Origin: Saccharopolyspora soli
GTDB lineage: Bacteria > Actinomycetota > Actinomycetes > Mycobacteriales > Pseudonocardiaceae
DNA: 64,000 nucleotides
Direction: 5' to 3'
Assembly: GCF_022678645.1 (NCBI RefSeq)
Contig: NZ_JALBWV010000039.1
Span: forward strand, 1-64,000
Shown here: one piece after another, positions 52,929-58,694 of the stretch
Layout of the letters: each line of letters begins with the position of its first letter
Numbering within the stretch: position 1 is the first letter of the stretch
Notes under the pieces: model-generated
What the model saw: only the letters and a program-made list of their open reading frames with translations
What the model was told of the DNA's origin: nothing
The model's database searches: none
Translations under genes and position numbers: made by a program

Positions 52929-54542
52929 TCAGGCGCTGCGGCGGCCGTCGTGCAGGTTCAGGGTGGGCCCGTTCCAGCGTTGCCGCAGCCAACGGTCGTG
53001 GCTGGCGACCACGACGGCGCCGGGCGCGGTGCGCAGGGCGTCTTCGAGTTCACCGGCCAGGGTCAGGGACAGGTGGTTGGTGGGTTCGTCGAGCAACAAC
53101 ACCTGTGGTGGGTCGGCGAGCAGCAGTGCCAGGGCGAGGCGGCGGCGTTGGCCGACCGACAGCGCCCCGATGGGGCGGCCGAGGTCGGCTGGGGCGAGCA
53201 GGCCGAGTTCCTGCAGCGCTGGGACGTGTGTGCGGTCCGCGGTGGCGGTGGCGTACAGCTGGCGGGGGCTCTTGCGGGCGTCGGGGAAGGTGACGTCCTG
53301 TTCGAGCAGGCCGATGCGGGTGCCGCGGCGGCGCTGCACGCTGCCGGTGTCGGGCGCCAGGCGCCCGGCGGCCAGGTGCAGCAGGGTGGATTTGCCCGCG
53401 CCGTTGCCGCCGGTGATCAGCAGTCGGCCGGTTCCGGTGAGGTCGAGTTCGTCGATCCACACCCGGCCCTGCACCCCGGCCTGCCGGATCTGCAGCACCA
53501 CGTCGGTGGTGGTGTCGCGGTCGGTGAGGGTGGCTGCGAAACGCAGCGGCGGCGGGGGTTTGCGGACCTGGTCGGCGGTGAGCTCGTCCAGGCGCTGCTG
53601 GGCGTTGCGCACCCGCCGGGAGATCTGCTTCTGGACGCGGGCGCCTTTGTAGTCGTAGGCCAACTTGCTGGTGTTGCCGCGCGGTGCGTGGTGGCTGACC
53701 TGGCGGGCGGTGACGGCCACGGCGTGGCGCAGGGCGTCGAGTTCGTGCTGTTCGGCGGCGTAGCGCTGTTCCCAGCGGGCGCGTTCGGCGCGTTTGGCCG
53801 CAAGGTAGTCGGTGAAGGTGCCGCCGTAGCGGGTGGGGCCGTGCACGGCGGGGTCGAGGTCGAGGATGTCGGTGCAGACCGCGTCGAGGAACACGCGGTC
53901 GTGGCTGGCGAGCACGACGGTGCCGGGCAGCGCGGCGAGGTGTTGTTGCAGGAAGGCCAGGGCGGTGTCGTCGAGGTGGTTGGTGGGTTCGTCCAGCAGC
54001 AGGGCGCGTGGTTGGCGCAGCAGCAGCGCGGCCAGGCCCAGTCGGCTGCGCTGCCCGCCGGAGAGCGTGCCGGTGCGCCGCTGGCGGGGGATGTCGGCCA
54101 GGCCGAGTCCGTCGAGGACGACTTCGGCGCGGTGGTCGGCGTCCCAGGTGTCGTGCTGCTCGGCCCAGTCGAGGACCTCGCCGTAGGCGGCGAGGGCGTC
54201 GGCGTCATCGGGCCGGGCGGCGAGCACGGCGGCGAGTTCGGTCAGCCGGGTCTGTGCGCCGCGGTGCTCGGCCAGGGCGGCATCGAGCACGTCGGCGAGG
54301 GTGGCCTCGGGGCTGAAAGGTGTTTCCTGGTGCAGGAATCCGAGGTCGTCGGGGCGGGTGAGCTCGCCGGTGTCGGGTGCTTCGGCACCGGCCAGCACAC
54401 GCAGCAGGGTGGATTTGCCGACACCGTTCTCACCGACCAGGCCGATGCGGTGGCCCGGCGAGGCGGTCAACGACACCCCGTCGAGGACGACGCGGTCCGC
54501 ATAGGACTTGACGAGATCACGAGCGAGCAGAACGAAAGACAC
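52929..54542 (-). CDS. ABC-F family ATPase, probable ribosome-protection resistance protein
   Basis: 537 aa, two ATP-binding domains and no membrane segments, the ABC-F layout. Domain 1: GLVGENGVGKSTLLRVLAG, LSGGQRSRLGLAALLLRQP, LLLDEPTNHLDDTALAFL. The linker of about 80 residues (WEQRYAAEQHELDALRHAVA and on) is the arm that reaches the ribosome's peptidyl-transferase region. Domain 2: ITGGNGAGKSTLLHLAAGRL, LSVGQRRRLALALLLADP, LLLDEPTNHLS. It resembles actinomycete resistance ABC-Fs for streptogramin, lincosamide or pleuromutilin drugs. Its leader has a strong promoter and a tiny ORF. Confidence 0.88.
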   Translation of the reverse strand: MSFVLLARDLVKSYADRVVLDGVSLTASPGHRIGLVGENGVGKSTLLRVLAGAEAPDTGELTRPDDLGFLHQETPFSPEATLADVLDAALAEHRGAQTRLTELAAVLAARPDDADALAAYGEVLDWAEQHDTWDADHRAEVVLDGLGLADIPRQRRTGTLSGGQRSRLGLAALLLRQPRALLLDEPTNHLDDTALAFLQQHLAALPGTVVLASHDRVFLDAVCTDILDLDPAVHGPTRYGGTFTDYLAAKRAERARWEQRYAAEQHELDALRHAVAVTARQVSHHAPRGNTSKLAYDYKGARVQKQISRRVRNAQQRLDELTADQVRKPPPPLRFAATLTDRDTTTDVVLQIRQAGVQGRVWIDELDLTGTGRLLITGGNGAGKSTLLHLAAGRLAPDTGSVQRRRGTRIGLLEQDVTFPDARKSPRQLYATATADRTHVPALQELGLLAPADLGRPIGALSVGQRRRLALALLLADPPQVLLLDEPTNHLSLTLAGELEDALRTAPGAVVVASHDRWLRQRWNGPTLNLHDGRRSA

Positions 54543-56900: not shown

Positions 56901-57457
56901 ACGCGCCGGAACCGCGGCTGCGCACCGCACGACTGCTACTGCGACCAGCGAACCCCGCCGATGCGACCGCGGTCCACGAATACCGGGCGGACCCGAACAT
57001 CGCCACCTACCTCACCCAACCAGCGCTGAGCCTGGAACAGGTCCGGCAACGCCTCCGCACCGCCGCCGACCGCTGGACGCGCAGCGACCACCAGCGATTC
57101 CACCTGCTGTTCACGGTGCTGGCCGACGACACGATCATCGGCGAAGTCCAGGCCGTCAACTGCACCGAACGCGGCAAGCCAACCTCGCCGGACCCGACCG
57201 AAGTGTGGGTCTCCTACGTGTTCAATCCTCGCCACCAGGGCCACGGCTACGCCACCGAAGCCGTGCGCGACGTGTGCAGCTGGCTGTTCCGCCGGGGCGC
57301 CGCGCGGATCTTCGCCAACCTCTACACCGCCAACACCCCGTCATACCAGCTCCTGCACCGACTCGGGTTCCAGGAACACCAACGCCTCTCCGCCGACGAA
57401 GACACCCTGGGAAAGAACCTGCCGTCGGTGCGGATGCGCCTGGACGCGCCCGGTTGA
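56897..57457 (+). CDS. GNAT N-acetyltransferase (RimJ/RimL-like)
   Basis: 186 aa from GTG 56897, overlapping the previous stop. RLRTARLLLRPANPADATAV opens the protein, PTEVWVSYVFNPRHQGHGYA holds the acetyl-CoA loop, and FANLYTANTPSYQLLHRLGF ends the core. The family acetylates N-termini or side chains of proteins or small amines. Its stop is followed by the leader region of the tryptophanyl-tRNA synthetase gene. Confidence 0.88.
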   Translation: MNAPEPRLRTARLLLRPANPADATAVHEYRADPNIATYLTQPALSLEQVRQRLRTAADRWTRSDHQRFHLLFTVLADDTIIGEVQAVNCTERGKPTSPDPTEVWVSYVFNPRHQGHGYATEAVRDVCSWLFRRGAARIFANLYTANTPSYQLLHRLGFQEHQRLSADEDTLGKNLPSVRMRLDAPG

Positions 57458-57471
57458 GCCGCACGATGCGT

Positions 57472-57477
57472 TAGCAT
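57472..57477 (+). promoter_or_regulatory. -10 element of the trpS leader transcript
   Basis: TAGCAT lies 6 bp before the GTG of the leader peptide, so transcription would begin at or within a base or two of that GTG and the leader would be read without a ribosome site. A -35 element is not clear. Confidence 0.5.
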
Positions 57478-57483
57478 GGCGGG

Positions 57484-57525
57484 GTGATTCGCAGTTCGTG
57501 CCTCGCGTGGTGGCGCTCCGGTTAG
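57484..57525 (+). CDS. trpS leader peptide with tandem Trp codons
   Basis: GTG 57484 to TAG 57525 encodes 13 residues, MIRSSCLAWWRSG, with two adjacent TGG codons. It is too short to be chance in this position: the gene downstream is a tryptophanyl-tRNA synthetase and an intrinsic terminator follows 28 bp later. When charged tRNA-Trp is scarce the ribosome stalls on the Trp pair and the terminator should not form. Attenuation of an auxiliary TrpRS (trpRS1) has been described in Streptomyces coelicolor. Confidence 0.85.
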   Translation: MIRSSCLAWWRSG

Positions 57526-57553
57526 GAGCGGCCAACCAGCATGCACACCTCTC

Positions 57554-57579
57554 GGGCCGTTCGGATGGACGGCCCTTTT
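57554..57579 (+). terminator. Attenuator hairpin before trpS
   Basis: GGGCCGT, an 8-nt loop, then ACGGCCC and TTTT, a canonical intrinsic terminator. An upstream hairpin (GCTCC/GGAGC at 57515-57529) lies around the leader stop codon, and GGCC at 57530 can compete for the terminator arm. It ends 62 bp before the trpS start. Confidence 0.85.
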
Positions 57580-57641
57580 CCATGTTCTCCGCACGTCCGG
57601 GGCGTCGACCGAACCCCGCGACCAAATTCGAGGAGAACACC

Positions 57642-58694
57642 ATGACCACCATGATCGAAACCTCCGCCGCCGCACGACGCAGCGCCGAGCTGGAGGAACT
57701 GATCCACCTGCGACCGGCGGACTTCCGGGTGCTCACCGGCGATCGCCCGACCGGACCGCTGCACCTGGGCCACTACTTCGGCACCCTGCACAACCGGGTC
57801 CGCCTGCAGCACCTCGGCGTGGAACTGCTGGTGATCATCGCCGACTACCAGGTGCTCACCGACCGGGACATCGCCGACCGGCTCGGCCAGCACGTGCACA
57901 ACCTGGTGCTGGACTACCTGGCGGCCGGGATCGATCCGCAGCGCGCCACCATCTTCACCCACAGCGCCGTGGCGGCGCTCAACCAACTGCTGCTGCCGTT
58001 CCTGAGCCTGGTGTCGATGTCCGAACTGGCCCGCAATCCGACGGTCAAGGACGAGATCGCGCATTCGCAGCAGTCCGCGGTCAGCGGCCTGATGTTCACC
58101 TATCCCGCCCACCAAGCCGCCGACATCCTGTTCTGCAAGGCGAACCTGGTACCGGTCGGCCAGGACCAACTGCCGCACCTGGAGCTGACCCGCACCATCG
58201 CGCGCCGGTTCAACGACCGCTACGGCGCGCTGCTGCCCGAACCGGATGCCCTGCTGTCCCCAGCGCCCCTGCTGTTGGGCACCGACGGAACGAAGATGAG
58301 CAAAAGCCGCGGCAACGCGATCATGCTCTCGGCCACCCCGGATGAGACCGCACGCCTGATCCGAGGCGCGAAAACCGATTCCCAGCGCCACATCAGCTAC
58401 GACCCGCAGGCCCGTCCGGAAGTCTCCAGCCTGGTGCTGCTGGCGGCCCTGTGCACCGGGCAAGATCCGCACGACCTCGCCGAAGGCATCGGTTCGGGCG
58501 GCGCGGCGACGCTGAAACGCACGGTCACCGAGGCGGTCAACGAGCACCTGGCACCGATGCGGGCTCGGCGGGCCGCGTTCGCAGCCGATCCCGGTCAACT
58601 GCGCGGCATTCTGCGCGACGGCAACGAGCGCGCCAACACCCTCGCCGAGACCACCCTGAACGAAGTGCGCTCCGCGATGGGCACCCGCTACTGA
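57642..58694 (+). CDS. trpS: Tryptophanyl-tRNA synthetase, probably the inducible auxiliary enzyme
   Basis: 350 aa from ATG 57642, with GAGGAG upstream. Class I signatures are GPLHLGHYFG (HIGH type) near residue 38 and GTKMSKSRGNAI (KMSKS) near 222. The tryptophan pocket region LLVIIADYQVLTD and the dimer part MFTYPAHQAADILFCKANLV are present. It charges tRNA-Trp. Control by a Trp-codon leader and attenuator, and placement among accessory genes, suggest the second TrpRS that some actinomycetes use under Trp limitation or against inhibitors such as indolmycin. No indolmycin gene is seen. Confidence 0.93.
   Translation: MTTMIETSAAARRSAELEELIHLRPADFRVLTGDRPTGPLHLGHYFGTLHNRVRLQHLGVELLVIIADYQVLTDRDIADRLGQHVHNLVLDYLAAGIDPQRATIFTHSAVAALNQLLLPFLSLVSMSELARNPTVKDEIAHSQQSAVSGLMFTYPAHQAADILFCKANLVPVGQDQLPHLELTRTIARRFNDRYGALLPEPDALLSPAPLLLGTDGTKMSKSRGNAIMLSATPDETARLIRGAKTDSQRHISYDPQARPEVSSLVLLAALCTGQDPHDLAEGIGSGGAATLKRTVTEAVNEHLAPMRARRAAFAADPGQLRGILRDGNERANTLAETTLNEVRSAMGTRY

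Follow-up and report, generated by a model that had tools for sequence, protein, structure and literature searches.

Within the window (the whole 64-kb stretch of DNA analyzed here), trpS, a gene for a tryptophanyl-tRNA synthetase (TrpRS) of 350 amino acids, occupies positions 57642–58694 of the forward strand and follows a Shine-Dalgarno (SD)-like GAGGAG at 57630–57635. Its product scored 243 bits against TIGR00233 (cut-off 176.75) and matched PF00579, while its best solved relatives were 1yi8 and 2a4m, the latter titled Tryptophanyl-tRNA synthetase II and both presumably from Deinococcus radiodurans; these matches point to an auxiliary, TrpRS II-like enzyme. About 3 kb from trpS, on the reverse strand at 52929–54542, lies a gene for a TlrC/CarA/OleB-like ABC-F protein, which scored 482 bits against that ribosome protection family, below the curated cut-off of 800.

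A putative regulatory leader lies upstream of trpS, with all of its features on the forward strand. A −10 box, TAGCAT (57472–57477), predicts the start of a leaderless transcript and stands six nucleotides before the GTG (57484–57486) of VIRSSCLAWWRSG, an open reading frame (ORF) of a type conserved in relatives, which comprises 13 codons (GTG ATT CGC AGT TCG TGC CTC GCG TGG TGG CGC TCC GGT) and a TAG stop (57523–57525; whole ORF 57484–57525). Codons 9–10 are the tandem Trp codons TGG TGG (57508–57513). Four RNA strands can be drawn from pair counts and hairpin energies: strand 1, TGGTGGCGCTCC (57508–57519), with its core CGCTCC at 57514–57519; strand 2, GGAGCGGCC (57525–57533), the first base of which is the last base of the leader stop codon and which pairs with either strand 1 or strand 3; strand 3, GGGCCGTTC (57554–57562), which pairs with strand 2 as an antiterminator or with strand 4 as a terminator; and strand 4, GGACGGCCC, followed by TTTT (57567–57579). 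In the minimum-energy fold, the 1:2 hairpin also carries an outer stem, GTGC (57498–57501) with GCAC (57543–57546), spanning 57498–57546. The predicted intrinsic terminator thus reads GGGCCGTTC-GGAT-GGACGGCCC plus TTTT (57554–57579, stem to 57575). The preliminary description had claimed a −10 box, a GTG six bases on, a 13-codon ORF with tandem TGG codons, a T-run terminator, and a tryptophanyl-tRNA synthetase downstream; all of these are in place, the U-run being short at only 4 T.

A terminator search of 57000–58000 found one terminator against 0.4 expected from shuffles, and the fold of 57486–57583 (−45.3 kcal/mol, z −2.83) was equalled by 1 of 200 shuffles. The pattern of promoter, start codon, TGGTGG, and stop occurs once in the window, together with a terminator, while the chance rate of the promoter plus Trp-Trp ORF was 0.0075 per 64 kb in 400 order-1 Markov windows, where the pattern never coincided with a terminator. 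Upstream of the −10 box, no −35 box was recognizable at a distance of 16–18 nucleotides (TTGAGC lies only 12 nucleotides away), and a promoter consensus scan at the leader gave no match. Covariance model R1, whose alignment includes the window sequence, scored the leader site at 89 bits; its other matches in the window at E values up to 1 were the opposite strand of the same site (19.7 bits), as such antisense matches at leader sites reflect near-palindromic hairpins, and a site elsewhere (10.1 bits). The observation of a Trp-Trp leader, hairpins, and a terminator ahead of trpS is therefore confirmed.

The leader is conserved among relatives of the window TrpRS. Among loci L001–L112, 110 matched this enzyme at 1e-60, of which 102 remained after duplicate removal; L002 and L003, both paralogues, fell short of this threshold (E 1e-38 or weaker than 1e-60) and were excluded. 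These loci represent the closest relatives only (the best 80 of 411 candidates, and 30 of 39 matching genomes among 120 searched) and so are not independent of one another. A start codon, TGGTGG, and a nearby stop precede trpS at 88 of the 102 distinct loci, with leaders of 13 codons in 82 cases, 12 in four, and 17 in two, and with TAG as the stop in 86 of 88. At least 13 genera are represented by the named loci among the 88, e.g., Streptomyces, Nonomuraea, Planotetraspora, Microtetraspora, Embleya, Kitasatospora, and Allokutzneria, while the closest named matches at the window locus are Saccharopolyspora species (87% TrpRS identity).

The script found no Trp-Trp ORF at the other 14 of the 102 loci. 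By eye, L082 and L098 have the same leader except for CGG TGG (R1 86 and 97 bits), L025, L027, L031, and L032 have different Trp-containing leaders, and no leader of any kind was seen at seven loci (L054, L069, L071, L110, L028, L029, and L030). At L041 (1441–2426), the leader looks split by an apparent insertion sequence, with R1 matching both flanks. When L082 and L098 are added to the 88, the first Trp codon is kept in 88 of 90 leaders and the second in 90 of 90, 88 of these having been chosen for TGGTGG. Fewer than four T follow within eight nucleotides of the script-picked terminator stem in 14 of the 90 leaders, although the script sometimes absorbs U-run bases into the stem, and L052, L047, and L055 have no U-run at all after the stem. 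Because of these 14 terminators, termination strength may differ between species.

The position of the −10 motif argues for a leaderless start. Leader starts were picked by their distance from the first TGG, ignoring upstream sequence, and TANNNT nevertheless ended six nucleotides before the start in 68 leaders, seven in 19, and eight in one (88 of 88), against a single case at all remaining offsets from 0 to 30 nucleotides. An AGGAGG-type SD core was seen ahead of just 5 of 88 leader starts, versus 87 of 87 candidate trpS starts at loci that had a candidate.

Both alternative RNA folds are also conserved. In alignment A1 (60 of the 90 leaders, thinned at 0.93 similarity), pairing held in 98.8% of 1014 cells for helices 1:2 and 3:4 together, where 3 of 17 pairs (two in 1:2 and one in 3:4; six cells) showed two-sided changes that preserve pairing, and in 97.9% of 479 cells for the antiterminator helix 2:3, where 2 of 8 pairs (six cells) showed them. 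The outer stem of 1:2, which joins mainly leader codons 5–6 with GCACGA ahead of the terminator, was paired in 83.5% of 358 cells, and 5 of its 6 pairs carried such changes (24 cells); the window's own row forms 3 of 6 pairs in the aligned columns, its GCAC apparently being misaligned by at least one column. In all three counts, none of 500 shuffles matched the observed paired cells, two-sided cells, or covariation score. The number of two-sided pairs was equalled by 1 (1:2 plus 3:4), 12 (2:3), and 47 (outer stem) of the 500 shuffles, and that of further pair types by 14, 175, and 18, respectively; these shuffle counts are not probabilities, because the leader sequences share kinship, and the many invariant pairs are uninformative on pairing either way. 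Sliding one partner strand by 1–3 columns lowered pairing to 34–67% (1:2 plus 3:4), 27–60% (2:3), and 10–59% (outer stem). The covariation score fell in every slide but one (+3 for 1:2 plus 3:4, 0.069 versus 0.068), while the −3 slide of the outer stem also gave five two-sided pairs, in fewer cells (8).

Energies are consistent with a switch between these folds. The 1:2 hairpin reaches −19.3 kcal/mol and the terminator −16.6 kcal/mol, while 2:3 reaches −12.1 kcal/mol when strand 1 is hidden and strand 4 is not yet made. With strand 4 in place, the terminator has the lowest computed energy even if strand 1 is hidden, so the switch would have to be kinetic, with 2:3 forming first. The classical attenuation model likewise requires 2:3 to form first for antitermination.

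The locus therefore combines a short tandem-Trp leader ORF, an intrinsic terminator ahead of a Trp-related gene, helices 1:2, 2:3, and 3:4 that are mutually exclusive by pair counts and energies, and a −10 motif at fixed spacing that may place the transcription start at or upstream of the leader ORF. We conclude, with a probability of roughly 0.92, that this element is a trp-type ribosome-mediated transcription attenuator acting on a leaderless transcript and controlling an auxiliary TrpRS gene. The comparative pair counts for 1:2, 2:3, and 3:4 support the overlapping hairpins of the preliminary description, the spacing of the −10 motif and the scarcity of SD cores support its leaderless start, and its attenuation reading is likewise supported. 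In the proposed mechanism, RNA polymerase would initiate at or adjacent to the GTG, and a ribosome would start on the 5′-terminal start codon. With ample charged Trp-tRNA, the ribosome would reach the stop codon and cover strand 2, allowing the 3:4 terminator to form. If Trp ran short or a TrpRS inhibitor left tRNA-Trp undercharged, the ribosome would stall at codons 9–10 and cover strand 1, so that 2:3 could pair and transcription could continue into trpS. In an untranslated leader, 1:2 would form and the terminator would be active, which implies that read-through RNA from the acetyltransferase gene upstream would be stopped too. The inducing signal is most likely a fall in Trp-tRNA charging, upon which the auxiliary TrpRS would be switched on.

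Alternatively, the element could be present while a promoter of the WblC/WhiB7 type exerts the main control and attenuation is minor. SCO3334 is listed among the WblC-activated genes of S. coelicolor (PMC7157823), which favors this scenario, but SCO3334 probably belongs to another auxiliary lineage (see below), and by eye the sequence upstream of the −10 box of the window leader is not AT-rich. Overall, we consider predominant promoter control unlikely.

It is also conceivable that free tryptophan or a drug is sensed by the leader peptide, which would then stall its own ribosome. TnaC- and Erm-type leaders work by such nascent-peptide arrest, and the peptides have features that would suit it: a Cys lies three codons ahead of the first Trp in 75 of 90 leaders, and the WWRS ending is conserved. 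Yet the conserved Cys codon sits within the covarying outer stem, and codon 12 turns to Leu in four leaders and Phe in one, with compensating changes in strand 2. After the Trp pair, Arg is always encoded by CGC (89 of 89) and Ser by TCC (85 of 85), and all six leaders with an altered CGCTCC (L058, L086, L091, L096, L084, and L093) have a matching strand 2 change. Judging from the alignment, downstream of the Trp codons it is nucleotides rather than residues that are conserved, which counts against a nascent-peptide sensor. So does the single Trp of the S. lividans leader and of L082 and L098, in which the second Trp codon alone is kept; for attenuation, these cases suggest that one Trp codon can suffice. 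Peptide arrest thus appears very improbable.

We give still less credence to the idea that the hairpin merely terminates the upstream acetyltransferase gene and that the ORF arose by chance. The last base of the acetyltransferase stop codon is 57457, some 100 bp ahead of the terminator, as this explanation would have it, but a promoter-like box lies in between, at least 13 named genera share the ORF, its spacing, and the antiterminator pairing, and the low chance expectation given above speaks against coincidence. Finally, a T-box or Trp-binding riboswitch is scarcely credible: aminoacyl-tRNA synthetase genes of Firmicutes are described as mostly under T-box control (PMC1262725), but no Rfam family matched in the window at gathering score, and a relaxed scan of 57400–57700 returned only two matches, both to unrelated sRNAs (E 4.1 and 8.8).

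The attenuator would not control the only TrpRS of this organism. A second trpS had been raised in the preliminary description as something to look for, and the host genome (9.35 Mb, 184 contigs) encodes three TrpRS above the family cut-off: the window gene and genes on contigs C95 and C11. The C95 enzyme, matched in all 22 same-genus genomes and in 56 of 61 genomes searched, is taken as the housekeeping TrpRS, and the window gene is auxiliary in the sense of being extra to it in the same genome. Window-type TrpRS occurs in 19 of 22 same-genus genomes, with only a partial match in G005, and C11-type TrpRS (at least 83% identity) in 14 of 22. None of the best 30 loci of the C95 type has a Trp-Trp leader. 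These housekeeping-type trpS genes (L002 and L177–L205) look leaderless themselves, with a −10-like box (first base T, C, or G allowed) 6–7 nucleotides before a possible start in 27 of 30.

The C11 lineage has leaders of its own. Searching with C11 at 1e-80 gave matches in 80 of 150 genomes, housekeeping copies included, and the best 30 C11-type loci comprised 27 with a leaderless Trp-Trp leader, two with one Trp (L166 and L175), and one with none (L163). The C11 trpS of the host genome (6607–7542, minus strand) is among these 27 and follows the Trp-Trp leader VRAMLSIWWAASGRPVSIAH. Within Streptomyces, the genus to which G474 was assigned from its leaders and family, the same query found matches in 194 of 295 genomes at 1e-85, possibly including other TrpRS types. 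The best 30 of these loci were all nearer to C11 (52–56%) than to C95 (49–53%); all 30 had a short leaderless leader, 29 with Trp-Trp and many like MTTRTCTQLWWAA, and the enzymes behind such leaders share 34–38% identity with the window enzyme. The trpL2 peptide of S. lividans, MMTRTCTQLWRAA, is matched by MTTRTCTQLWWAA-type leaders, so C11 is probably the lineage of trpRS1/SCO3334, with the window gene in a different one.

Members of the window lineage could differ from housekeeping enzymes in inhibitor binding sites. SGR_3809 of S. griseus is an indolmycin-resistant TrpRS (PMC6804068). In S. griseus BIG105, only two TrpRS matches occurred: a copy that scores as housekeeping-like and a window-type copy. 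SGR_3809 is therefore probably a member of the window lineage as well. In this lineage, Arg and Gln replace the Gln (IQP) and His (DLH) of housekeeping TrpRS, positions that we take to be the Gln11 and His45 at which a docking study placed indolmycin (PMC6450493).

The element extends beyond these TrpRS relatives. With strict filters and E of at most 0.001, R1 matched in 27 of 394 genomes class-wide, the host included. Eleven loci lie ahead of window-type TrpRS (L116–L120, L122–L126, and L128), and at L127 and L136 the downstream TrpRS is nearer to the C11 type. Ten weaker loci (L129–L135, L137, L139, and L140; E 1.5e-7 to 3.6e-4) precede a chorismate-enzyme-like frame; scans of three of these ten frames showed a resemblance to anthranilate synthase component I, with scores under the curated cut-offs. 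A Trp-Trp peptide can be read in frame from the start of the R1 match at nine of the ten, and at L140 by eye from an ATG eight nucleotides further in. At L142, R1 matched the L118 site on its other strand. At L121 (1501–1597), the leader is intact and the downstream window-type trpS looks internally shortened, possibly a decaying gene. By eye, we took the matches at L138 (tRNA-like) and L141 as chance, along with a second R1-like site in the host genome (contig C129, E 0.064) inside an ORF resembling an rRNA methyltransferase.

In a plasmid collection, TrpRS relatives (59–78% identity) occurred in 10 records, one of chromosome size. Four plasmid loci were read. The Streptomyces trpS (L206) carries the same element, MHLSSCLSWWRSS (R1 101 bits), while those of Microbacterium (L207) and Rhodococcus (L208) have other leaderless Trp leaders, MNFNRSAWWWLR with three Trp codons and VFVIRQAWWRLLSQPV, respectively; no leader was found at the Collinsella plasmid-record trpS. 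TrpRS matches in phages also exist.

The mechanism, the type of gene, and the leaderless start are each already in print. The E. coli trp operon attenuator has the same Trp-Trp leader and 1:2/2:3/3:4 logic as the window element, but differs in its leadered mRNA with an SD sequence and in controlling a biosynthetic operon rather than a synthetase gene. Ribosome-mediated attenuation of an auxiliary TrpRS gene is the reported finding of Vecchione and Sello (J Bacteriol, 2010), reportedly in S. coelicolor. Seliverstov et al. (2005) predicted classical attenuators before the trp operons of Streptomyces and Corynebacterium and before trpS2 of S. avermitilis (PMC1262725); as here, these comprise a leader with Trp codons, a terminator, an antiterminator, and GGCC-type complementary triples, whereas only one trpS case was predicted and the word "leaderless" is absent from the main text of that paper. 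RNA-seq of S. lividans identified leaderless Trp leaders before trpE and trpS (PMC8079986). The trpS leader of S. lividans, trpL2, resembles the window leader in its 13 codons, leaderless start, Trp at codon 10, hairpins, and trpS target, but it has one Trp codon, and the authors of that study saw no U-rich stretch (PMC8079986). As for the genes themselves, trpRS1 (SCO3334) of S. coelicolor and S. lividans is probably of another TrpRS lineage than the window gene, whereas SGR_3809 probably shares its lineage. A literature search, with subscription papers mostly outside its reach, yielded no account of the window-type element across genera or of two attenuated TrpRS lineages in one genome, a weak negative in both cases. 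To this, our data add breadth, covariation, the presence of two auxiliary lineages with attenuators in a single genome, a copy on a plasmid, and the lack of an Rfam family match.

Tentatively, these findings could describe a widespread actinobacterial element, matched by no Rfam family, in which a −10 box sets the start codon of a leaderless 13-codon Trp-Trp ORF and which would serve two auxiliary TrpRS lineages, with weaker relatives at chorismate-enzyme genes and one copy on a plasmid. If this broader and rather uncertain proposal were true, the two attenuated lineages of one genome could act in two steps as an inducible backup when Trp is scarce or TrpRS is inhibited, and the leaderless start would keep the sensor working when SD-dependent initiation is impaired. 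The comparative data join scattered observations in Streptomyces into one conserved element of RNA and leader peptide that is open to testing and occurs in at least 13 named actinomycete genera; both states of the switch show covariation. The element may mark inducible-backup copies of TrpRS and could thus be useful for predicting self-resistance to TrpRS inhibitors such as indolmycin, while its leaderless design may offer a compact natural assay of initiation at 5′-terminal start codons.
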